A stretch of 42,542 bases of DNA from a virus, in IMG/VR virus record IMGVR_UViG_3300033552_000020, positions 1-42,542 of that record; one strand, given 5' to 3'. The notes under the pieces were generated by a model. That model was given only the letters and a program-made list of their open reading frames with translations, made no database searches and had not been told where the DNA came from. Numbering within the stretch: the first letter of the stretch is position 1; each line of letters opens with the position of its first letter. Position numbers and translations under genes: made by a program. Below are positions 6,025 through 40,888 of the stretch, piece after piece.

Positions 6025-7335
6025 TTAACCTTGTACTACAACCCTAAATGCACTAGCTATAACAGCTACTGCAAACCCCAACGTAATCTGATTTACAGTA
6101 TTACGTACTACATCGCAATCTACAGTAGCACCATCAGCTACTTCATACACTTGAACTGCGACATCCAAGGTGTTCAAATTGTGGCTAATAGCTACCGAAG
6201 TACCGGCACCGATTGGTGCAGCAAACTTGCGAACTACTACGCTAGTATCAATAGCAACTGCATCTGCCGTTACTAGTATACCTGCACCAGCACCTACATT
6301 AAAATCTGCACCAGTTAGTACTAGACCATTGCCTGCTGTGTATGCGGTAGATGCGCTAGTAAATACCACAGTAGCTGTAGAAGAACCAAGCGTGATTGCA
6401 GTATCGTTAGATAAGATTAGGAATCTATCCGCACTTGTACCTGCCTGGACTATCCAGTAAGAACCTAAGGATGCTTCAGCATCTGTATCCCAGTTCAACG
6501 TACGAGTCATAGCTGCTGCCGACCCGTTGAAAACGTAAGGACCGTTCTGTGTTGTAACAGTTTGTCCGTAAAGCCAGAACAATTCACCAACTGCAGCGGT
6601 CAGTCCGTCTATAGTCGTTCCAGGTGTAGTGATATTGACGTTTGTCGCTGTGGCTGCACGAACTGACCCTTTAATAACTGAGGTATTATTAGAAGAGGCA
6701 ATCGCCGCCGTTAGCTGTCCAAAATTTGCTGCATCACTAGCGGCTACGCCGTTTGCTACATTAATAATTTTTTGGTTGCTGACGTTAACAGATGTAATAG
6801 GTACTGCAAACTCATCAAGACGATATGCTTTTACCACTGCAGCTAGGTCACTAACGGTAGCAGCTACCTGGGTGCCTGTATGGTTAGCGCGAGCAAGTAA
6901 GACGGCATCCGAGCTGTTTGCAGTAGCGCTAGCGGCTATGCCATCTAGCTTGGTTTTGTCAGCGCCAGTCATAAAACCAGATGCACCTGCGGCTATAACA
7001 GCAGCGTGTGTGGTGCCGCCTGCACGTGTGCCGTGAGCCGTGTCGTCAAAGCGCGCTGCAGGCAGTAAACCGGAACCTAGATCGGCTGCAGAACCGCTGG
7101 TGGCTATAGCCGCAAGACCTGTAATACTGGCTACAGGCTGCGTACCTGTGTGATTACTACGAAGCGTAGGATCAATCCAGATCACAGCCCCGAAAAACTC
7201 AAGTCTGCCACTAGTCGTGTTGTAGTAAGTTTGACCCGGCAAAGGAGAAAGCGGAGCTGTTGCCAAGTTTTGAATAATGGCGTTTTGAAGCTCGTTTTTA
7301 GCTAGGTTTAAGTGGGAAAGAAATTTGCGGCTCAT
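6025..7335 (-). CDS. Tail fibre protein, 436 residues
   Basis: The N-terminus (LNLAKNELQNAIIQNLA, then PLPGQTYYNTTSGRLEFF) is a pattern common in phage fibre proteins. Residues about 80-145 carry the fibre-shaft motif TKLDGIAASATAN with LLARANHTGTQ, and the C-terminus is a small beta domain (SHNLNTLDVAVQVYEV). That end domain resembles the C-terminus of the neighbouring collagen-like protein. A GGAG site precedes the ATG. The LARANHTG motif recurs in the 1055-residue fibre, so these fibres share shaft modules. Confidence 0.75.
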   Translation of the reverse strand: MSRKFLSHLNLAKNELQNAIIQNLATAPLSPLPGQTYYNTTSGRLEFFGAVIWIDPTLRSNHTGTQPVASITGLAAIATSGSAADLGSGLLPAARFDDTAHGTRAGGTTHAAVIAAGASGFMTGADKTKLDGIAASATANSSDAVLLARANHTGTQVAATVSDLAAVVKAYRLDEFAVPITSVNVSNQKIINVANGVAASDAANFGQLTAAIASSNNTSVIKGSVRAATATNVNITTPGTTIDGLTAAVGELFWLYGQTVTTQNGPYVFNGSAAAMTRTLNWDTDAEASLGSYWIVQAGTSADRFLILSNDTAITLGSSTATVVFTSASTAYTAGNGLVLTGADFNVGAGAGILVTADAVAIDTSVVVRKFAAPIGAGTSVAISHNLNTLDVAVQVYEVADGATVDCDVVRNTVNQITLGFAVAVIASAFRVVVQG

Positions 7336-7353
7336 AATGTACTCCGATAAGAA

Positions 7354-7803
7354 TTAGTTTAAGTAAGCGTTACCGGTAAAAGCGGCAGAAAAAATAACAC
7401 GCAAGCTATTATTGTCGAGGTACTTAACTTCCCCCTCCACCTCTTCGCCTGCGCTATCCACTACAGTAACTGAAGGAAATTTTGCAAGGTTGTGAATAAT
7501 CAACCAGTTTAGCGAAGCAGGACCTTGTGCGTACTGATAGCTTAAATCTACTCCCAAACCCGGAGTACCTTGTATTCCTTGTGCTCCGGTAAGTCCAGTA
7601 AGTCCAGTACTTCCGGTAAGCCCAATACTACCCGTATTTCCGGTAGGGCCAACACTTCCGTTAGGTCCGGGTATTCCTGGAGGCCCCTGTTCATAAAGCT
7701 CCATTAATTCGGTAGTGCCCGTATCTAGTAATATAACTTCTAATAGAGAGGTTTCTAGTACTAGATGTTCAATATCTGCTACTAAGAGTATTTCGTTAGA
7801 CAT
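7354..7803 (-). CDS. Collagen-like tail fibre protein
   Basis: 149 residues in three parts: an acidic N-terminal region likely to attach to the tail, fourteen uninterrupted Gly-X-Y triplets at about 40-81, and a C-terminal beta domain ([18 protein letters not shown]). Collagen-like repeats form trimeric rods in phage fibres. Proline is mostly in the first triplets and threonine dominates later, as in phage collagens that lack hydroxyproline. Overlaps the upstream gene by 8 bases. The C-terminal domain matches in pattern the end of the next gene (6025-7335), which suggests a shared trimer-capping fold. Confidence 0.82.
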
Positions 7804-8155
7804 TTGTTACTTGGGGGGATATAACTATATTACCTGCAATTTTACGTTTTACCGTAGCATCAGGGAAAATAATTTTTAAGTCGTATACGCCGGTAGTCCA
7901 GGTAATTAAGGAGGTTGCAGCAGCCGTAAGTTTACAGAATTCAATAGACCCACTAGTACCCCCTAGTACAATGCCGCCGTTTTCAGTAGTTAGTTCTAAT
8001 AACACAGTAGTAGAACCTACTTTATCTTTAACGCGCATTTTGGCGGTACAGCCAGTAAGATTAACAGGAACTGCTGGAGTTCCTGATTTCCATACCGCTT
8101 TTTTAGAGTAAGTAGCACCTTGGTCTATTTTTAGATTTAAATTAAATGTAGACAT
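7796..8155 (-). CDS. Conserved tail protein, 119 residues
   Basis: The N-terminal pattern [20 protein letters not shown] followed by [28 protein letters not shown] and VYDLKI matches a family of small beta-sandwich proteins often found next to collagen-like fibre genes in phages, recalled from memory only. It probably links fibre to tail or acts as a fibre base. Its ATG shares a base with the upstream gene stop region (8155), giving tight coupling. No catalytic motif is visible. Confidence 0.7.
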
Positions 8156-8364
8156 TACTCATCTCCATAAGTCAAAGAGTGTCTATTTTTCCATATTTGA
8201 GAAAAACAAACAGAGTTAGCAGCAAATGATACCGTTTCTATTCCGTTAATATCTATTAGTATTCTACGGATTCTCCACGCGGCGGAGGCTTCACCGGTAT
8301 TTACAGGAGCTTCGCCTCGGTATATTAAGTATTGGGATACTAGATCAATTCGTTTTGAGTGCAT
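8155..8364 (-). CDS. 69-residue conserved tail-region protein
   Basis: Basic small protein starting MHSKRIDLVSQYLIYRGEAP with a core WRIRRILIDINGIETVSFAANSVCFSQIW, which reads like a short beta-sheet protein of the kind found beside the 119-residue family in other phages. A GGAGGT ribosome site lies before the ATG. It overlaps the upstream gene by 20 bases and abuts the downstream one. Function unknown; likely fibre base or assembly. Confidence 0.68.
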   Translation of the reverse strand: MHSKRIDLVSQYLIYRGEAPVNTGEASAAWRIRRILIDINGIETVSFAANSVCFSQIWKNRHSLTYGDE

Positions 8365-8710
8365 CAGCTACCTCCGCTGTTTGCTTTATCATAATACGAT
8401 GCAGTCTAGTGGTTTCTTGATTTAGTATAGAAACTTCTTCTTGAAGCTTCTGATTTTCTAGGGTAAGTTTAGTAAGTTGACCGCTAAGTTTAATTAGCTC
8501 TATTTGAAGCTTACCAATTTCCCCTGATAATGTAGAATTTTGTCCGGACATTCGTTCTAACTCTGTATGCATAAGAGTTAGCAAGGAGGACTCAGTAGAG
8601 CCACTTTTCCAAATTTTCATAATACTTTGAATACCTAGTGCAATCACTGCCATGGTAACTATTAGAAAACCAAATATCTGGGCAAAATCGTATGAACCCG
8701 TCAAATTCAT
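8345..8710 (-). CDS. Membrane-anchored coiled-coil protein, 121 residues
   Basis: Start set at the ATG at 8710, where an AAAAGGG ribosome site lies seven bases upstream; a GTG at 8734 would add eight residues but has no clear site. The product has one N-terminal membrane segment (about 8-30, DFAQIFGFLIVTMAVIALGI) and a long coiled coil with leucine and glutamine heptads (about 45-110). First gene after a strong promoter. The topology is like an i-spanin, but the cassette already has one at 4461-4850. It may be a second envelope-spanning factor or a tail-associated membrane protein. Confidence 0.72.
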   Translation of the reverse strand: MNLTGSYDFAQIFGFLIVTMAVIALGIQSIMKIWKSGSTESSLLTLMHTELERMSGQNSTLSGEIGKLQIELIKLSGQLTKLTLENQKLQEEVSILNQETTRLHRIMIKQTAEVADALKTN

Positions 8711-8780
8711 AATATTGCCCTTTTTAAAAAGCACTAGATAGTACTTATAGTATTAAAATATTTTTTTCTCGATTCCTGAA

Positions 8781-8809
8781 ATTATAACACAAACACAGTT
8801 TAGGGTCAA
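8781..8809 (-). promoter_or_regulatory. Strong sigma70-type promoter for the distal fibre, lysis and phoH unit
   Basis: Minus strand: -35 TTGACC (8804-8809), 17-bp spacer, extended -10 TGTTATAAT with TATAAT at 8781-8786. The start would be near 8774, about 64 bases before the first ATG. It follows directly after the terminator at 8818-8843. The -35 is followed by CTAAAC, also seen in the 29-bp repeats upstream of terS. Confidence 0.9.
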
Positions 8810-8817
8810 GACGAAAA

Positions 8818-8843
8818 ACGGGGAGCCCTATAAAGCTCCCCGT
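8818..8843. terminator. Intrinsic terminator of the first fibre unit
   Basis: A 9-bp perfect stem (ACGGGGAGC / GCTCCCCGT) with an 8-base loop. On the minus strand the stem runs into TTTTCG, and on the plus strand into AGTTTTTT. It closes the unit that ends with the gene at 8850-9329 and sits immediately before the next promoter. Confidence 0.85.
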
Positions 8844-8849
8844 AGTTTT

Positions 8850-9329
8850 TTATATAACGTGTCTTGTTTTAATAGCTAGTTGTGGTCGGTACTCTAGTTT
8901 TGAAGGGTATTTACTAGAACTGTACACGGGCCAGCCAAAGCTAGTGTGAAAGCACCAAGATATTTTTCCTAAGGAGTAAGGCTTAGATATCTTGCGAGTG
9001 TAGAAGAACCCGTCTCTTTTATGTGGGCCACCTTCCGGCCAGTAGCTAGGGGCTTCTTTGGAGAATAAGCTATCAAACCCGTGAGCTCGGTTTCTTAGAC
9101 CAAACCAGTACCATGCGCTAATAAACCAACCGTACTTATTATAAATACGTTGTACAGTTGGTTCGTATAGTCCTATAAATTCTGCTTCATCTGGAGTATC
9201 GTACCAACTCCAAGCTAGATTTTTTGCATCGCGCTTAGTGCATAAGAGTGCAAAAAATACGGCTAGTGGCGCGGTTTGTGCTACTACAAAGCATAATAGT
9301 GCTACGAATATTACATATAATTTACTCAT
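8850..9329 (-). CDS. Putative membrane-associated protein, 159 residues
   Basis: N-terminal hydrophobic stretch (about 4-29, LYVIFVALLCFVVAQTAPLAVFFALL) followed by an aromatic-rich region with YDTPDE, YGWFISAWYWFGLRNRAHGF and SWCFHTSFGWPVY. The pattern TPDE then Y-W-F-G-L-R-N-R-A-H-G recalls an uncharacterised phage family (a DUF), whose role is not known. Overlaps the upstream hydrolase gene by 8 bases. Last gene of its unit before the terminator at 8818-8843. Confidence 0.72.
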   Translation of the reverse strand: MSKLYVIFVALLCFVVAQTAPLAVFFALLCTKRDAKNLAWSWYDTPDEAEFIGLYEPTVQRIYNKYGWFISAWYWFGLRNRAHGFDSLFSKEAPSYWPEGGPHKRDGFFYTRKISKPYSLGKISWCFHTSFGWPVYSSSKYPSKLEYRPQLAIKTRHVI

Positions 9330-28942: not shown

Positions 28943-30397
28943 TTAAATTGAGAAGTAGCGAATAGCTAGTTCGTTTACGTTAGTAATGTCGTATGCGTTA
29001 TCTGCTAGAGTACTGTTAGTACCTTGGCATGTAAAGTTGATTGCTGTAGACATAACTGCTTGAGCATCAATAGTAGGAATCTGAAGCATGGCTCCTGAAG
29101 ATTCTACTTCTACGCGTGTACCGTTTGATGCGCCACCAATTTCAAGCTGTAAGCGGAACTTAGGCTCAATTCCAGCAACTGTAGCAGATGCTGCTAGTAG
29201 TGCATTTAACAAGCCAGAGCTGTTAGTGCTACCGGTACGAAGATACGCATTAATAGTACCACTTACTGCACGAGTACCTGTAAAATATCCGATTGGGGTG
29301 TTTACTACCCCGATAATTGCAGGAGTAACATAAGTAATGTTATTTGCTATAGTAATACTACCACCCGTTAGTGCTAGTGTATATGCAGTACCACCAATAC
29401 CGCCGACATTACTAATCATAGTAACAGTAGACAGTTTATTAGTGATAAAATTAGCTGTAGTGTCCTTACCTTTAATAGTACCGGTTAAGCCACCACTAAT
29501 AGCTGGGTCTGTTGCTGCACTGTATGCTACGGTAGTAGCTAGCTGACGTAGCGCGGTACCTTTACCGGTCCATGCAACCATAGCAATACCGTCTAAGCCA
29601 AAGTCAATAACAGCCTGATCTAGGGCACAGTTATCAATAGCATAAGTAATACCATCTACAGTAATAATCATACCAAAAGCAAGCAGCTGGTTTCTATTAG
29701 AAAGAGCAGTTGTAACTGAAGAGTAAGCTACAGGAATTCCTGGGGCAACGTCTGCTGTAACTGCTGCGTTTTCGTTCCATGCGGTTCTGGTAAAATTAGT
29801 TATACCAGTTGCGCCAAAGTTAGCGGCTACAGCTGCAGCCGTAGGAGTAACTATATACGTAGCAGTTATCGCTGTACCACTAATGGCCGTAACTCTAACT
29901 GCGCTATTATATTGAGAAGCTCCTGCTCCTACAACACCTCTAATAACTGCTACTTCACCTACAGCTAAACCGGTAACTACCAAGCCTGTGCCTGTAAATG
30001 TGATAACACCCAGAGATTGAGTAACCGAGGTTAAAGTAGTATAAGATAGAGCTACCGGAGTTGCAGATACCGCAGTAGCACTTAAAAGCGCGTTCCACAG
30101 GTGAGATTCTTCACATTTTATAGTGCCCAATAGCTTAGGTCTAATATAAGTAGAGAACGAGAACTCTACGTTAGCTAAGCTAGTATTAAAACTGCGCTGA
30201 CCACGAACTGGTGTTACACCAGCTTCATTGATGTTTATAGTATCGGCGTTACTAGCTTGTGAAAAGCTAAACCCGTCCATTACTTGAAGTTCTTGAGAGT
30301 TAGCAGCAGTAAATCCAGTTGCTGCTACAATGCCCGTCCCGATAGCCACATTAGTTGTAAAAACTACGCGGCTATTACGTATTAGATTAAATGACAT
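28943..30397 (-). CDS. Major tail tube protein, 484 residues
   Basis: Directly upstream of the chaperone pair, as expected. The N-terminal domain (FSFSQASNADTININEAGVTPVRGQRSFNTSLANVEFSFSTYIRP, residues about 43-90) has the pattern of siphovirus tube proteins. The C-terminal part is beta-rich with G, T and A. The length is greater than many tube proteins (about 200-350), so an extra surface domain is likely in the middle (about 110-300). AAGGA precedes the ATG. Followed by an attenuator-like hairpin. Confidence 0.82.
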   Translation of the reverse strand: MSFNLIRNSRVVFTTNVAIGTGIVAATGFTAANSQELQVMDGFSFSQASNADTININEAGVTPVRGQRSFNTSLANVEFSFSTYIRPKLLGTIKCEESHLWNALLSATAVSATPVALSYTTLTSVTQSLGVITFTGTGLVVTGLAVGEVAVIRGVVGAGASQYNSAVRVTAISGTAITATYIVTPTAAAVAANFGATGITNFTRTAWNENAAVTADVAPGIPVAYSSVTTALSNRNQLLAFGMIITVDGITYAIDNCALDQAVIDFGLDGIAMVAWTGKGTALRQLATTVAYSAATDPAISGGLTGTIKGKDTTANFITNKLSTVTMISNVGGIGGTAYTLALTGGSITIANNITYVTPAIIGVVNTPIGYFTGTRAVSGTINAYLRTGSTNSSGLLNALLAASATVAGIEPKFRLQLEIGGASNGTRVEVESSGAMLQIPTIDAQAVMSTAINFTCQGTNSTLADNAYDITNVNELAIRYFSI

Positions 30398-32966: not shown

Positions 32967-34892
32967 TTACGCCCAACGAAGAGCTGAAACGCCTTGACCA
33001 ATATTGGTCGTGGTTTGTACTAGTCCAGTACGTAGCGATGCTACTAGCACTTTACGCTGTGTTTCTACCAAGTCTTGAGTATCAAAACGTAGACCACGCT
33101 GATTACCTGCTAAGAAATTGCTAGCTGCAAAAGCGATTGCGCCAATGTTAGTAGAAGCAGTTGCAAGACCACCAGCTTTAGCAGGGAATTCAGAAGATAC
33201 TAGCACTGGGCTATTACCTACGGAACCTACTTGACCAGTTAGAAGAGTAGCAGCATTACCTACTTTATCAACTGTCTGGAACAGGGTGTCGTCTAGCAAG
33301 TCGTAGTACACTTCAGTAGATACGATGTAGGTAATTTCAGCTGGGTCAAGACCCCAAGCACCTAGATCTTTACGTAGAGCACGTAGGTTAGCTACAGAAG
33401 CCACACCGGTAGATGTAGGAACTACAACAGAAGTAGTGTCGTAAGACGCTAGACCTTTAACTGGGTCAACACCAGCACCAGCACCCATTAGGTAAGCTTT
33501 GTCCATTGCACGAGCAACACGACGAACCATAGCGTCACGAACGATAGGCAACAGCACCATTAGTGAGTCTTCTTCTTCTTCGTATGCAAGGTATTCCATT
33601 GTTGCTACTTTGTATGCATTTAGAGTAATCTCTTTTAATGCATGAGTTTGAGCAGCACCAGGTGAAGCAGTAGTACCAAACTGAGCGTTAGTAATCCAGG
33701 TTGCTGTACCTGCTTCTGGGTTTACAGGAATAGTCATGACGTTGGTTTTCATGGCAATACCACGAATCAAAGGCGCCACAATTAGTTTACGACGAACTTC
33801 AGCTTCCATGTTCATAGAAACTTCAAGTTCCCATGTATTTGAAGGTAGGTGAGCACCAGCTTTAGCAACTAGTTCAGCACCAAATTTGGTAGACTCAATA
33901 GACTTACCGGTAATTTTTGACAGTAGAACTGCCTTTTCGCGGTCAGCATAGCCAGCACTTTTATTATCGCCGTTGAATTGCATTTTGCTAGTTTGGATAG
34001 CAAGCATTTCAGTAGACTTCTCTTTTAGTTCGGCTTGTAGGCCCTCTAAAACAGACTTGGAGGTAGCAGCTTGGTCATCTACACGCTTAGTTAGTTCAGC
34101 GATAAGTTTTTCAGCACCAGTTTGACCGGTCTGAATGTGGGTAGCAACAGCCTTAGCTACGCTGTCATTAAATGCAGTAGTAGAAGCAGTTAGAGCAGCG
34201 GCATCGGCCTTCTCTTTTGCAGCTGCATCAGCGAAAGCTTTTGCAGTAGCGGTAGCAGCGGTATTAGCTGCAGCATCAAGCAAAGCTTGTAGTTCTTTTG
34301 GATCCATTTTCCATTCCTTTTTGATTGCGCTCGACGTATCTTCAAGAGAAACTAGCCCTTTAGCTGATTCGTCTTTGGGTATAAATTGAGCTTTGAAACT
34401 ATTAAAATCTTCGGCACTATCAAATGCTTTAGAGAGGTTAAATAAGGTGTTTTGATTGCAAGGTACTGAAACTACCGAAATCTCGATAAGTTCTAGTTCT
34501 TTGATTACAAATACCTCTGCGGCTGCATTATATTCAGCGTCTAGGATTCTGAACCCGATACTGAATGCTGTAAGGACTTCGTCCTTAATTAGATTAAAAA
34601 CTTCAGCAGCCGCTGAAATTCTTGCTTTTATCCAAAGACCTCTGCTATCTAGCTTGTGCTCAGTCATGCGGCCAATAGGGTCGTCATGATCGTGCTGGGC
34701 TAGAATAATAGGGTTTTTAAGGTAGTTTTGAATACCTTTTTCCCATGCTCCAGAGGCTACTACATCTCCTGATCTGTCAGTATCTACGGTACTTGCGTAC
34801 CCTTCAATGAAGATTGATTCAATAGTTTCATCTTTTGCGGATGCTGCTTTGGTAAAAGCACTATTTAAATATAGTACTTTTGATTTATCCAT
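32967..34892 (-). CDS. Prohead protease-major capsid protein fusion, 641 residues
   Basis: One gene codes the maturation protease and the HK97-fold capsid protein. Start set at the ATG at 34892, with GAGGAG just upstream, one base after the portal stop; a longer frame start at 34934 lies inside portal. Residues 1-160 are the S78-type protease: FIEGYAST, HDHDDPIG with a probable catalytic His67 or His69, FSIGF with Ser111, and ELELIEISVVSVPCN. Residues about 196-310 are a helical, alanine-rich delta (scaffold-like) domain, and about 310-641 the capsid (SNTWELEVSMNMEAEVRRKL, MAYLAYEEEEDSLM-like region, FLAGNQRGLRFDTQD). Cleavage after the delta region is expected. An internal start at 34307 is discussed in the findings. 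Confidence 0.9.
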   Translation of the reverse strand: MDKSKVLYLNSAFTKAASAKDETIESIFIEGYASTVDTDRSGDVVASGAWEKGIQNYLKNPIILAQHDHDDPIGRMTEHKLDSRGLWIKARISAAAEVFNLIKDEVLTAFSIGFRILDAEYNAAAEVFVIKELELIEISVVSVPCNQNTLFNLSKAFDSAEDFNSFKAQFIPKDESAKGLVSLEDTSSAIKKEWKMDPKELQALLDAAANTAATATAKAFADAAAKEKADAAALTASTTAFNDSVAKAVATHIQTGQTGAEKLIAELTKRVDDQAATSKSVLEGLQAELKEKSTEMLAIQTSKMQFNGDNKSAGYADREKAVLLSKITGKSIESTKFGAELVAKAGAHLPSNTWELEVSMNMEAEVRRKLIVAPLIRGIAMKTNVMTIPVNPEAGTATWITNAQFGTTASPGAAQTHALKEITLNAYKVATMEYLAYEEEEDSLMVLLPIVRDAMVRRVARAMDKAYLMGAGAGVDPVKGLASYDTTSVVVPTSTGVASVANLRALRKDLGAWGLDPAEITYIVSTEVYYDLLDDTLFQTVDKVGNAATLLTGQVGSVGNSPVLVSSEFPAKAGGLATASTNIGAIAFAASNFLAGNQRGLRFDTQDLVETQRKVLVASLRTGLVQTTTNIGQGVSALRWA

Positions 34893-34893
34893 T

Positions 34894-36087
34894 TTACTCC
34901 TCAGGTGGTTTATCTGGCTTAGTTGGTGCTCCACCTAAACTAGGGTTAGCCGCGGAGCCTGCAATGTTAGCTGGAATTCTTAACTCATTCGACTTAGGGT
35001 CTTTATCAACATCGTAGCGTAATTCTTTACGCGCTTCATTAGCTGTTAATATACCTGCATTCACTAGAGTAGAGTGATATGTGGCTACTTCTTTTAGTTC
35101 TGGTTGTAACGCAGACACATTAGAAGTAATAGGGCCTATGTCGTATCCAAAATAACGCTCCATTGCAGAGGTGTATTTTGCTATAATAGGCATTATAGTC
35201 TCTAGATAAAATAGGCGTAAATTAGGGCTAATATTAGCGTTGTTACCTCCGTCTAATAGAAGCGGTGGTACACCTAAAGCTTTTAAAATTTTGGTATCGT
35301 GGGTTTTGATACTTACATCAAAATCCATCTCTTGAAATGTAGCTGAAGAGATTGGACTAGGCTTAAGACCACTATCTAGAATCATTGGGCGTTTAGCACC
35401 GTTTTTAGGGCTATATCGCTGCGACCACATAGCAATAGTTTTGTCTTTAGCAATTTGGCTTAAGGTATTTTCTGTAGTAATTACAATACCTGCAACCGCA
35501 CCGTTTTCAAAGAATTGATCTTGAAACTGATGCATTTTATATAGGGTTTTAATATTTCTATCTGCAGCCGCCAGTCTGCTGCTACCTCTGTAAATAGAGG
35601 TACTACTAACATCTTTGATATGAATTACTTCAGAAGGTTTAAAAGTAATTGTGCTGTCGTAGAGATACTTTTCTACGAATAGTTTTGGGTGGCTAATAAC
35701 TTGTACATGAGAGGCTGGAAGATGATACAGAGCAGCACCGTCGTAGTAAAGGAATATGTTTCCTTCAAGAATAAAATCTGTAAATATACTAGTTCTAAAC
35801 TCTATAGCACTTTGATAAGGGTTTGGGCGGTAGTTAAGTAACGTGTGCAAAGTCTTTGCACGCATACCTGTTACTATACCTTCTAAAATTTTGTCTTTTA
35901 TGTCGTATTCTAGGCCTGAGCAGGCGCTTACGATCATATTTACTCCACGATTTACAGTTTCCAACTTATCAAATGATTGAGAGTACGCAATAGTAGCGTC
36001 TGACGAAATCTGGGGTCCTTCACCAAAACTAATCAGCTCTTGTGCTGGGTTTGCTTTGGTCCAGGTAGACGGGTTATACCATGCCAT
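34894..36087 (-). CDS. Portal protein, HK97 family, 397 residues
   Basis: Forms the dodecameric ring through which DNA enters. Start set at the ATG at 36087, with AGGA five bases upstream; an in-frame TTG at 36111 is less likely. Family segments are NRGVNMIVSACSGLEYDIKD, LLNYRPNPYQSAIEFRTSIF, EGNIFLYYDGAALYHLPASHV, EVIHIKDVSSTSIYRGSSRL, ENGAVAGIVITTENTLS and LKALGVPPLLLDGGNNANIS. Length and order match HK97 portals. The C-terminus is proline-rich. It follows the HNH gene with a seven-base gap. Confidence 0.94.
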   Translation of the reverse strand: MAWYNPSTWTKANPAQELISFGEGPQISSDATIAYSQSFDKLETVNRGVNMIVSACSGLEYDIKDKILEGIVTGMRAKTLHTLLNYRPNPYQSAIEFRTSIFTDFILEGNIFLYYDGAALYHLPASHVQVISHPKLFVEKYLYDSTITFKPSEVIHIKDVSSTSIYRGSSRLAAADRNIKTLYKMHQFQDQFFENGAVAGIVITTENTLSQIAKDKTIAMWSQRYSPKNGAKRPMILDSGLKPSPISSATFQEMDFDVSIKTHDTKILKALGVPPLLLDGGNNANISPNLRLFYLETIMPIIAKYTSAMERYFGYDIGPITSNVSALQPELKEVATYHSTLVNAGILTANEARKELRYDVDKDPKSNELRIPANIAGSAANPSLGGAPTKPDKPPEE

Positions 36088-36629: not shown

Positions 36630-36663
36630 GCCGCAGTAGCTATAAGGCTACTGCGGCTTTTTT
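36630..36663. terminator. Bidirectional intrinsic terminator after the terminase unit
   Basis: An 11-bp perfect stem (GCCGCAGTAGC / GCTACTGCGGC) with a 6-base loop, an A6 run on one side and T6 on the other. It ends the terS to GIY-YIG unit and overlaps the end of the nuclease gene by two bases. Confidence 0.94.
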
Positions 36664-37249
36664 AACTAAACAACTTCTTCCACCAAGGTAAAGCTAATTT
36701 TTGACTTAACATTGCATTAGCTTCTGTTAACAATTTAATAGTAGCTTCGCGTTCTGCTATACAATTAATATACGAATTAATGCGTTTATTAACATCTGAC
36801 TTCAATTCTTCCTTAGAGCGTTTCTTTAATAAGTAATTAACTTCTTCGGTTAAACTATATACATTACCTAAAGTTTCTGTATGTACAGTATTAAGCTGAA
36901 TTAGGCTATCAACGTGCTCAATAGTTGACATGTGTAGCATACCCATCAAATCATCATATAGGGTGTCGTAAATACCTAAAAAAGGATCTGTTGGATATGT
37001 TGCATTTAGGGTAGGTTTTAGTCTATTAATAAAGCAAGCCTCAACTAAGTCAATATGATCAGCATGACACTGAAATATTACTTTACCCTCTGGAGTTCCG
37101 TACTTATTGAACTCTGCCTGCATGTTGCTAGCGGCCGTACCTTTCATAAGTTTATCGTTATGCTGCTTCCAGCGATTTTCGATATTTACAGATTTGCCAA
37201 TGTAATTATTGCCAGAGGAAAAGGTTAGTGTATAGATGCCGGAAGTCAT
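36662..37249 (-). CDS. GIY-YIG endonuclease, 195 residues
   Basis: Start set at the ATG at 37249, overlapping the terL stop (ATGA); the longer frame from 37348 only repeats terL bases. The nuclease domain is at the N-terminus: GIYTLTF and NYIG motifs, conserved Arg in NIENRWKQH, Glu in DLVEACFIN and the following LKPTLNATYP. All catalytic positions of the family are present. The C-terminal half is helical and charged, perhaps DNA-binding. A free-standing homing endonuclease directly after terL is the simplest reading; a DNA-cutting role in packaging is the alternative. Confidence 0.85.
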   Translation of the reverse strand: MTSGIYTLTFSSGNNYIGKSVNIENRWKQHNDKLMKGTAASNMQAEFNKYGTPEGKVIFQCHADHIDLVEACFINRLKPTLNATYPTDPFLGIYDTLYDDLMGMLHMSTIEHVDSLIQLNTVHTETLGNVYSLTEEVNYLLKKRSKEELKSDVNKRINSYINCIAEREATIKLLTEANAMLSQKLALPWWKKLFS

Positions 37250-38565
37250 AGTGTGTAAGTGTATAGTGCGTAACGTAATGCGTCTGCAATGTGAGAAGTC
37301 GCGCCATGAACGGGTTTCTCTTTGGTTAGGGTTTCTCTTTGGTCCCATTGGTACTGATCTAACATCTCTAAGGTGTGAGTGCAGTGAGGAGATACTAAAA
37401 GCCTGTCTTGTTGGACTATGGTCTGAACGTAAGCAATGCCTTCAAGTACCGCTTTTTTACCCTTAATTGTAGCGATATTGTAAGTATATGCAAGATCGGC
37501 TGCAAATTGCGCAGCAGCCGAGTCAATAAATATAGTCTCAAGACCCCATTTAGTAACAAACTCTTGCATAACTGAAGCATGGCCCTCAGTTACAGCTTCT
37601 GACTCAAGGTATTCGTCTATAACATGAAACTTGTCAATGCTGGGTATATAAGCTATAACTACAAAGGCTGTAGGGTCTTTGTATCCTGGGTCAAGACCGC
37701 CTATGTACTCTGCATTATCTAAGGGCTCATACTCTTGAGTACACTCACTATTATACTCGTATATCTGTCCTTCATACGTAGTAAATGAGGCCATGTACTC
37801 TTGCTCAAATTCAGCTTTACTCATACTACGACGTGCTTCTGCTACGTCAGATTCCTTCATTCGAGGATTTTCTGTATAGTCAGCAGTTAACGATACCCAC
37901 TCAGGATAGTCTGGACTAAATCCTCTGTGAAAGAACTCGCTAAACCAGTTATTTTTACCACGAGGTGTACTAATAAATATGGCTTTAGAGTTTGGCTTAT
38001 CTAGCGTAGGGCGCAAGGAGATGTTAAAAGCATCTTTACCGTTTTTACCTAAGGCAGCTTCATCGAATATAATAAGATCATATGAGCGACCAACGCAGCT
38101 ATCAACTGTGGTAATAGACCCCATCCTAATTGTAGAGCCGTTAGCAAGTTCTAAGATCTTATCCTTTAAGTTGTCTTTTTCAACTTCTAGGTCAAAGCTT
38201 TTAATTAGTTTACGCTGTATTTCGAAACTAATACTAGATAAAGTATAGTTAGGGGACATAATAAGTACATTACATCCGGGTATTAATACTACTAGTTGAC
38301 CTATGACATTAGCTATAAAAGTTTTGCCTAGACGACGAGCTAGGGCTGCGGAAATAAATCTGTACTTAGGGTTGTTTACTGCGTTGATTAACGCAATTTG
38401 GGGTCTGTTTGTTTCTTCCCATGCTGTAGACTTTTTATAGGTAACGGGGTCTACAGCAGGTAACAGTTTTAAGTACGCAGGAATAGGTAGTTTAATAAAT
38501 CTATTAGCTAAAGGGAACTCAGTTAGTTCTTCACTGTCTACGTCAGAACGACTAATCGTCAGCAT
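37246..38565 (-). CDS. terL: Terminase large subunit
   Basis: ATP-driven DNA packaging motor and nuclease, 439 residues. ATPase: Walker A-like ARRLGKT (76-82), Walker B LIIFDEA (164-170), coupling motif FISTPRGK near 198-204. Nuclease: Asp292 in GGLDPGYKD, Asp348 in FIDSAAAQ and Asp428 in HIADALRYAL. Length is typical. Its ATG overlaps the methyltransferase stop (TAATG). It is separated from terS by two unrelated genes, which is unusual, since the two subunits are normally adjacent. Confidence 0.95.
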   Translation of the reverse strand: MLTISRSDVDSEELTEFPLANRFIKLPIPAYLKLLPAVDPVTYKKSTAWEETNRPQIALINAVNNPKYRFISAALARRLGKTFIANVIGQLVVLIPGCNVLIMSPNYTLSSISFEIQRKLIKSFDLEVEKDNLKDKILELANGSTIRMGSITTVDSCVGRSYDLIIFDEAALGKNGKDAFNISLRPTLDKPNSKAIFISTPRGKNNWFSEFFHRGFSPDYPEWVSLTADYTENPRMKESDVAEARRSMSKAEFEQEYMASFTTYEGQIYEYNSECTQEYEPLDNAEYIGGLDPGYKDPTAFVVIAYIPSIDKFHVIDEYLESEAVTEGHASVMQEFVTKWGLETIFIDSAAAQFAADLAYTYNIATIKGKKAVLEGIAYVQTIVQQDRLLVSPHCTHTLEMLDQYQWDQRETLTKEKPVHGATSHIADALRYALYTYTL

Positions 38566-39284
38566 TATTTAGGTCTACAAATAATGTTGTATGACGCGTA
38601 GTTTTTATCCCAGATATTCTTCTTTAGCCCAAAGAAGTTATTTTCGCGGTACAGTGGGGGCGTGTGGTCTTCAATTGAATAGCCTAAGTAGTCTATAAAT
38701 TGACGTAAAGCTTTAGACTTGGTATCTCTATCATCTTCTAAATACATTACAGGCTTGCAGCGTGCAATTGTTTCTTGAGCACCTTCTAAGACTTCTAGCT
38801 CGTAGCCTTCAACGTCTACTTTCATAAAGCCTACGTCCATATACTCAAAAGAGTCAATAGTTACAACAGGCACTTCAATATTACCGTAAATTGAAGGGGT
38901 ACCAATACCTAAGCCGCCAAAGTTGTTTTTAACTGAGTAGTATACTTTAGGCATTTTAGCTACACCAGCTACAGCACCAACGGCAACATTATGCTCGTAG
39001 TGGCCGCTTTCTAGTAAGCTCATGCTCTTACAGTTTTCTACTAACAGATTAAATATCTCTGGCTGAGGTTCGAATGCTTCAACGCTAAACCCACTGGCAA
39101 TTAGTGCTTGAGAAATAACCCCAATATTAGCACCTATATCTAGACAACGCCCCGCAGCTAGGCTTAAAATCATTTCGGTTTCGTCGGGGTTGTATTCGCC
39201 GTAGCTATACATTGAACGGCCTACATAGATGTCTTTTTCTAAGAACTTACACTTTCCCCATCTGCCATATACTTCTCTATACAT
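38565..39284 (-). CDS. FkbM-family SAM-dependent methyltransferase, 239 residues
   Basis: Class I methyltransferase with SAM motif CLDIGANIGV (about 48-56), FEPQPEIF after the second strand (acidic residue binding the ribose), and the FkbM signature FMKVDVEGYELEVLEGA (153-169). FkbM enzymes methylate hydroxyl groups of sugars and other small molecules. It overlaps the glycosyltransferase gene by 8 bases and terL by one, so all three are translated together. The likely substrate is the sugar added by the neighbour or a host glycan; this is inference. Confidence 0.88.
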   Translation of the reverse strand: MYREVYGRWGKCKFLEKDIYVGRSMYSYGEYNPDETEMILSLAAGRCLDIGANIGVISQALIASGFSVEAFEPQPEIFNLLVENCKSMSLLESGHYEHNVAVGAVAGVAKMPKVYYSVKNNFGGLGIGTPSIYGNIEVPVVTIDSFEYMDVGFMKVDVEGYELEVLEGAQETIARCKPVMYLEDDRDTKSKALRQFIDYLGYSIEDHTPPLYRENNFFGLKKNIWDKNYASYNIICRPK

Positions 39285-40404
39285 TATTTTCCTTTAGTAT
39301 TTTTATTTTTTCGTGCACCGTAGCAAATGTTTTATCCCAACTATTGGGGTTACTAACTACAGAAACTGACGGGTACCAGACATTAGGCTGGCGGTTATCA
39401 CCCCATCTAAAGTCAGTATTCTTTAATGGTTGCACCATTATTGTGGGTACGCCAAGTGTTCCAGCTAAATGCACCAGGGACGTGTCAACTGTTACCAGTA
39501 AATCAAGTCCTAGGAGATAAGATGCAGTTTCTGCCCAAGTTTTAGGGCGTAAAGCAACAACATCTTTAGCAGTCCCAGCATCGGGACTAAGACTATACAG
39601 GCTACCAAAACTAGCGAGCCGACTAAAATAATTGCTAGAACAACTACGGTTATTGTTGTTAGCATGAGTAGGTGAACCATTCCAGCACACTCCTATATTA
39701 AAACTACCGGGGAACTTGTAGGCAGTAAACTTATCATCTAGGTAATTTTCTGGTACAACGCCGAAGATTTTCGCTAGTGAGCACATAGGCACGCTAACAG
39801 AAAATCCATGGGAAGAGGTTACACAAGGGTACGAGTATAAACAGTTTAGGCTCGGGTGGCACATTACGATAACGTTTTCAAAGTAACGTTCTAGGTAGGA
39901 TAAGTACCTGCCAAACATAATCTTGTCGCCAAAACCCTGTTCTGTTAATACTAAGATTGACTTGCCGGTTGAGACGCCATCCCAAGTAGGTACATAGTTA
40001 TCAATTTGAACAGCATTATTCTCCCGCTTAAATCGATACTCATAGTGCTGCCAGCCAGGTGAACAATTAGTTGAACGAAGAAGAGCGCATGCATAGTTCC
40101 AAATTGCGTCCATATAAAGCGGGTCTTTACATAGAGCAGCCTTATAGAACTCCATTGCCGCTTCTGAATTGCCTGAGGAATATTCAAGTAACCCAATATT
40201 ATTAAGTGCTAAAGGGTAGCTACCAGCAGCGTTAGCTGATTTTAAATAACACTCCATGGCCCTGTTATCTTGATCAAGCTCCCGATAGCAGTTGCCCATG
40301 TTTAGCAACACTTCACGAGTAGGGGTGCTTAATTTAAAGCATTGAAGAGCTTTTCGATAGTTTTTAGAGTTAAGGTACTTAAGACCTTTTTCAGCTTTAA
40401 ACAT
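39277..40404 (-). CDS. TPR-domain glycosyltransferase, 375 residues
   Basis: Residues about 1-110 are three tetratricopeptide repeats (NYRKALQCFKLS, DNRAMECYLKSANAAGSYPL, NSEAAMEFYKAALCKDPLYM). The rest is a GT-B type glycosyltransferase domain with WDG and LVLTEQGFGDKIMFGRYL (151-168), FNIGVCWNGSPTHANNNNRS, and the end motif LVTVDTSLVHLAGTLGVPTIMV, as in heptosyltransferase-like and TPR-GT proteins. It would move a sugar onto a protein or glycan. It starts 8 bases inside terS, and its location in a packaging operon implies late expression. The target may be a virion protein; not shown by the sequence. Confidence 0.85.
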   Translation of the reverse strand: MFKAEKGLKYLNSKNYRKALQCFKLSTPTREVLLNMGNCYRELDQDNRAMECYLKSANAAGSYPLALNNIGLLEYSSGNSEAAMEFYKAALCKDPLYMDAIWNYACALLRSTNCSPGWQHYEYRFKRENNAVQIDNYVPTWDGVSTGKSILVLTEQGFGDKIMFGRYLSYLERYFENVIVMCHPSLNCLYSYPCVTSSHGFSVSVPMCSLAKIFGVVPENYLDDKFTAYKFPGSFNIGVCWNGSPTHANNNNRSCSSNYFSRLASFGSLYSLSPDAGTAKDVVALRPKTWAETASYLLGLDLLVTVDTSLVHLAGTLGVPTIMVQPLKNTDFRWGDNRQPNVWYPSVSVVSNPNSWDKTFATVHEKIKILKENNV

Positions 40405-40888
40405 CTACTACACCCGAATCTTGGTGCATAAGCCGTTGAATTAACTCGGTATACTTCGACCCACCAGCCCCTTCATTAATTTGAATATTAGTTTGAGTTC
40501 TAACATTGGAGGCGCGCAATGTTTCTAATTTAATTTCTCGGTCAAGGTTTTCCATAGTCATCTTGTGCGATAGGGCTAAAAGCTCCGAAATATCTTTGGT
40601 TGAACCAGTTTCAGACTCGTCCATGTCTTGGAACTTTTTAGCAATTATCGCATCCATTGCATTGCGAATTTTAAATCTATTATTAAAGCCAGTATTGTAG
40701 AACACTTGGTCTATGTAGCTTTTTACCTCACGACGGGCAAGAATTTGCGTAACTAATTCAGGAGTAATTTCAAGAGCTTCTGCAACCTTTTTAATATCTG
40801 GGTCTTGCAAGTAGCAGTTAGCTACCTCTAGGCCTTCTGGGCTTATTTCTAAGACCTCAGCCGGGGAATGTGTGGGTAGGTTAGTCAT
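40397..40888 (-). CDS. terS: Terminase small subunit
   Basis: 163 residues. A helix-turn-helix-like segment at about 18-55 (LEVANCYLQDPDIKKVAEAL, then TPELVTQILARREVKSYIDQ) would bind the packaging start site; the middle (RNAMDAIIAKKFQDMDESE) is a helical assembly region. Position at the head of the packaging operon supports the call. It is preceded by the repeat array and promoters at 40914-41219. Confidence 0.86.
   Translation of the reverse strand: MTNLPTHSPAEVLEISPEGLEVANCYLQDPDIKKVAEALEITPELVTQILARREVKSYIDQVFYNTGFNNRFKIRNAMDAIIAKKFQDMDESETGSTKDISELLALSHKMTMENLDREIKLETLRASNVRTQTNIQINEGAGGSKYTELIQRLMHQDSGVVDV

Follow-up and report, generated by a model that had tools for sequence, protein, structure and literature searches.

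A glycosyltransferase-methyltransferase cassette between the terminase genes of T5-like phages, with a probable role in virion-protein glycosylation

The stretch of DNA analysed here (the window), an IMG/VR virus record of 42.5 kb, comes from a T5-like phage, an assignment based on its T5-type tail tube, its prohead protease fused to the capsid protein, its portal and its terminase. The large terminase subunit (terL) is 49% identical to terL of cultured Vibrio Demerecviridae. In the Vibrio Demerecviridae phage 234P1, terS and terL abut directly, with zero genes in the gap. Elsewhere in the window, the prohead protease (Peptidase_S78) and HK97-type capsid protein are encoded by a single 655-amino acid ORF (32967-34934), corresponding to two genes in 234P1. 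An adenosylcobalamin-dependent (class II) ribonucleotide reductase is encoded at 456-2417, and a small collagen-like (GXY repeat) protein at 7354-7803, in the tail-fibre region.

On the minus strand of the window, the terminase small subunit gene terS (40397-40888; phrog_3802, 2.7e-36) is followed by genes for a 375-amino acid TPR-glycosyltransferase, TPR-GT (39277-40404), a 239-amino acid FkbM-family SAM-dependent methyltransferase (38565-39284) and terL (37246-38565; Terminase_6N/6C, phrog_2, 1.8e-41). As the initial annotation had described, the two enzyme genes overlap each other and both terminase genes, with successive overlaps of 8, 8 and 1 bases; the junction sequences read ..TAGATG.. 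(terS/GT), ..TAATG.. (GT/FkbM) and ..TAATG.. (FkbM/terL). The end of terL is in turn overlapped by a GIY-YIG endonuclease-like gene (36662-37348, minus strand; PF01541, 9.6e-9). A sigma-70-like promoter with an extended -10 element, identified as a strong match but from the consensus only (11/12 positions, TG before the -10), lies just upstream of terS at 40942-40914 on the minus strand. An intrinsic terminator (36664-36623, minus strand), with an 18-pair stem including 8 G-C pairs and then a T-rich stretch, lies 3' of the GIY-YIG gene. Based on these two elements, a single transcription unit is predicted, running from the promoter match through terS, GT, FkbM, terL and, as its last gene, GIY-YIG to the terminator. 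GIY-YIG endonuclease-like genes, sometimes several, also pile up just 3' of terL in relatives of the window phage (L012 and L049).

The TPR-GT consists of N-terminal TPR helices (approximately residues 1-126) and a C-terminal GT-B-like domain carrying EQGxGD and DTSxxH motifs. In Pfam searches, TPR_1 scored above its cut-off (2.8e-11), and Glyco_transf_9 (PF01075) fell below it, with 19.3 bits against 22. The window enzyme can thus be called GT9-like only, and its assignment as a glycosyltransferase depends on relatives that do pass the Glyco_transf_9 cut-off (L061, L084, L089 and L069) and on the structural model. The AF2 model (pLDDT 86) has an all-helical TPR N-terminus followed by an alpha/beta C-terminal half. 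When this model was compared with known structures using Foldseek, as the initial annotation had suggested for known TPR-GT enzymes, the best full-length PDB matches were SPINDLY and OGT. These alignments have 11-14% identity, a Z score dominated by the TPR part and a low overall TM score, so that the fold match backs the architecture but not GT41 membership; no GT41 family appeared in the Pfam table of the protein at E<=0.01. Taken with TPR_1 and the model, the full-length matches give the window enzyme the TPR N-terminus and GT-B-like C-terminus of an FlmG-type enzyme. It also appears soluble and without a membrane anchor on hydropathy alone, where no membrane segment is evident (top 19-residue window, 1.46). 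Both catalytic-type motifs are invariant in 8 aligned GT sequences. Identity of relatives to the window GT is 33-55%, well under the 62-81% of terL in the same contigs, indicating that the GT evolves fast and nonetheless keeps these motifs.

For the methyltransferase, a full-length PF05050 domain was found (2.8e-20, 73.6 bits against a cut-off of 22.7), together with a match to TIGR01444 (1.5e-22, 80.6 bits against 37.7) and conserved DIGANIG and KVDVEG motifs. Its occurrence follows that of the GT: among 134 complete terS-terL intervals, FkbM was never found in the gap without a GT, and in 24 larger records it was present in 4 of 14 with a GT and 0 of 10 without. In L061 and L065 a non-homologous Methyltransf_11/23 enzyme occupies the FkbM slot. 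In unrelated phages (L074, L079 at 7068-8879, L086 and L094) the two activities are joined as single ORFs, with N-terminal FkbM and C-terminal GT domains; no TPR match was detectable in these fusions with Pfam. The fusions adjoin P2-like tail or fibre-like genes, those in L079 being P2-like tail genes. This dependence, replacement and fusion tie the methyltransferase to the GT and make a solid genomic case that the two form a functional pair, as the initial annotation had proposed. Its further claim, that they are co-translated with packaging proteins late in infection, holds in part. The overlaps and the single predicted unit make coupling plausible, but in two of the four larger records with FkbM this gene is distant from terL (in L036/L016, which are one contig, it sits amid recombination/replication genes; the other is G006), so the two are not always co-expressed late. 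Nucleotide-sugar epimerases (PF01370) were absent from 10 relatives, and donor sugars are therefore presumably host-derived. In Caulobacter phages, FkbM was seen near a large PE-PGRS-like gene.

To survey the arrangement more widely, GT- and terL-anchored scans of environmental T5-like contigs were used, yielding 134 distinct intervals in which terS and terL were both seen. A GT was present in 43: alone in 23, with FkbM in 17, with a different methyltransferase in 2 and in tandem in 1, so FkbM is missing from the gap at about half of the T5-like GT loci. The tandem case (L045:6848-9167) consists of two divergent TPR-GT copies. Among the 105 contigs reached by terL, and hence not picked for a GT, 14 contained one. 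The order terS-GT(-FkbM)-terL recurs in dozens of independent contigs, so relatives do not keep these genes only outside late operons, a distribution that would have spoken against the initial annotation. The cassette is real and conserved, and its recurrence is far beyond chance. In the GT tree, the T5-like enzymes group together in one supported clade, from which the enzyme looks like a single old acquisition that was lost from, or is absent in, other T5-like phages. The G+C content of the locus genes is uniform (0.40-0.41) and they are not a recent compositional outlier; with this and the monophyly of the clade, recent horizontal insertion of the cassette was dropped as an explanation.

The gap itself was empty of cargo in 65 of the 134 intervals and held unrelated cargo in 26. 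This cargo (in L123, L158, L162, L166, L180, L203 and L209) includes NifU/IscU-like, Fe-S biosynthesis (ErpA-like), class II aldolase, GT2 and calcineurin-like phosphoesterase genes, among others. In environmental T5-like phages the terS-terL gap is a hotspot for accessory genes. Because it also hosts unrelated metabolic genes or nothing, location there is weak evidence for a role in the virion, and after the cargo survey it was rejected as stand-alone evidence. The argument in the initial annotation from position in a packaging operon to modification of a virion protein or host glycan is weakened, while protein glycosylation still fits the TPR-GT architecture. A DNA-level search of a phage collection with the GT-FkbM pair gave no match, and tblastn of the GT against INPHARED returned one weak match (MW202512); the cassette is thus all but unrecorded among the deposited phages of INPHARED. 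No earlier description of the arrangement was found in the literature searched, which is not exhaustive.

Beyond the T5-like group, TPR-GT genes, often together with methyltransferase genes, were found beside T4-like major head genes (L069 and L075), beside phrog_617 major head genes (L084, with two methyltransferases, and L089), beside a phrog_212 head gene and connectors (L087), and beside major-head genes of phrog_9953 (L085) and phrog_334 (MW202512). They adjoin terL in L013 and L092, and tail or other virion genes in L079, L081 and L091. The strand of the GT is opposite to that of the head genes in L069 and L089, and in L076 and L078 the GT lies elsewhere. In the tree, GTs of non-T5-like phages are scattered among bacterial ones, pointing to repeated recruitment. 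This recurrence beside virion genes is stronger evidence than the position in the gap; the unrelated phages are not a random sample, however, and late regions are large, so it lends support without being decisive. In Herbaspirillum and Noviherbaspirillum, related bacterial TPR-GTs adjoin flagellin genes. The bacterial relatives came from an alignment-based scan; scanning bacterial genomes with the single GT sequence gave no matches.

For identification of a candidate acceptor, genomes with and without the GT were compared gene by gene, and the major tail protein was the most different. In the window this is a T5 pb6-like major tail tube protein (28943-30397, minus strand; phrog_3575, 1e-52), considered as a candidate acceptor only, with an inserted beta domain at approximately residues 115-205, of which 27% are Ser or Thr. 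Its model aligns with T5 pb6 (5ngj) over 305 residues at 2.5 A (Z 31.2), and, judging from the aligned lengths, the tube region of pb6 seems to have no counterpart of the insert. The extra domain was present in 24 of 24 GT-containing contigs and in 14 of 54 without a GT (n=78). Raw Fisher tests gave 1e-10 and 1e-6; independent-pair tests on trees offered 2-4 contrasts only, each of them either neutral or pointing the same way, and the association was non-significant after phylogeny. It is largely explained by phylogeny and is best treated as a lead; with so few independent contrasts, the raw association was not accepted as proof of the acceptor. Across the set anchored on the major tail protein, this protein ranges from 368 to 530 amino acids, and the beta domain switches state repeatedly on the trees. 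The collagen-like and Ser/Thr-rich fibres were also considered as acceptors and set aside: nothing links them to the GT, and most have no matches in GT-containing relatives. Among virion proteins, the major tail tube protein, with the beta insert, ranks first as candidate acceptor; the capsid and fibres are possible. The initial annotation had raised capsid glycosylation; a virion target appears likely from these comparisons, but the capsid is not favoured over the tail, whose tube is no weaker a candidate.

The reading we favour, and regard as rather probable, is that the GT and FkbM enzyme form a late-expressed cytoplasmic cassette for glycosylation of a virion protein with a methylated sugar. 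The TPR domain would bind the freshly made protein, and the C-terminal GT-B-like domain would move a host-supplied sugar nucleotide onto it, probably O-linked to Ser or Thr, with the FkbM enzyme O-methylating the transferred sugar. Such a cassette would be akin to FlmG-type enzymes and flagellin glycosylation islands, a self-assembling phage protein taking the place of flagellin, and the benefit would likely be an altered particle surface, affecting, for example, adsorption or stability. The activity, acceptor, linkage, sugar and benefit given here are those we infer for the cassette. A more specific and ambitious version, possible but doubtful, is that the tail tube of T5-like phages is glycosylated via a co-evolving extra domain by a dedicated TPR-GT/methyltransferase system, and that many unrelated phages have each taken up this enzyme type on their own to cover head or tail proteins with methylated sugars.

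The main rival to virion-protein glycosylation places the target on the host: late in infection, the pair would alter a surface glycan (LPS core, O-antigen precursor or capsule) and so block re-adsorption of released virions to debris or infected cells. The heptosyltransferase-like (GT9) motif of the GT domain fits this role, FkbM enzymes commonly act on surface-glycan sugars as methylases, and the GT2 and calcineurin-like phosphoesterase genes held by the gap elsewhere are possibly envelope-directed. We consider it unlikely, as an enzyme with a TPR module and no evident membrane segment more probably acts on a soluble protein, some bacterial relatives adjoin flagellin genes, and the recurrent neighbours in phages are head and tail genes. 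The frequency of unrelated cargo and of empty gaps in the survey raises a different explanation, in which the cassette is hotspot cargo, either neutral or of use under some conditions, whose substrate is a cytoplasmic protein or metabolite of the host with no tie to virion or surface. This seems distinctly improbable for an enzyme that forms a single old clade with conserved motifs in this slot and whose type unrelated phages have taken up close to their virion genes.

Given that the cassette lies beside the packaging motor, and that DNA-modifying phage GTs are known (PMC12619734), the GT might instead glycosylate modified bases of the phage DNA and FkbM methylate the sugar, protecting DNA around packaging. 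Thymidylate-synthase/hydroxymethylase genes (PF00303) were absent from 10 large relatives, possibly incomplete contigs, and control genomes were positive. To our knowledge, DNA GTs do not typically have a TPR architecture, and we rate this explanation as very improbable. If virion-protein glycosylation is correct, glycosylated phage particles would reach beyond mycobacteriophages into a widespread uncultured T5-like group, and a TPR-GT with a sugar methyltransferase would be a genomic signature of glycosylated virions across many phage lineages. Flagellin-type glycosylation would also be linked to virus particles, with a directly testable enzyme-acceptor pair.

Among known systems, the GT41 enzymes (OGT, an O-GlcNAc transferase, and SPINDLY, an O-fucose transferase) share the overall TPR plus GT-B architecture and gave the best full-length fold matches, but the window GT has a short TPR part besides its low structural-alignment identity and lack of a Pfam GT41 match. 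In mycobacteriophages, phage-encoded GTs have been linked experimentally to glycans that capsid and tail tube subunits carry (Freeman 2023, as cited in PMC12619734). By that description, the window cassette resembles them in having a phage-encoded GT and a proposed virion-protein target, and differs in its TPR-GT plus FkbM architecture, in its T5-like lineage and in that glycosylation here is deduced from genes. FlmG of Caulobacter crescentus is a cytoplasmic flagellin O-glycosyltransferase with TPR and GT domains (eLife 60488, PMC7591256). The window GT likewise appears soluble, with an N-terminal TPR and a C-terminal GT-B-like domain, and has bacterial relatives that adjoin flagellin; the likeness lies in architecture and these relatives, since the window GT is phage-borne, has 375 rather than 596 amino acids, is paired with FkbM and belongs to a phage without flagellin. 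The flagellin glycosylation islands of Enterobacteriaceae differ from strain to strain in their FkbM and AdoMet methyltransferases, and many of the GTs there include a methyltransferase domain (PMC4875605). The same combination of a variable GT with an interchangeable FkbM or other methyltransferase, and of GT-methyltransferase fusions, is seen in the phages; unlike the islands, the phage cassette sits between terminase genes, and its proposed acceptor is a virion protein.
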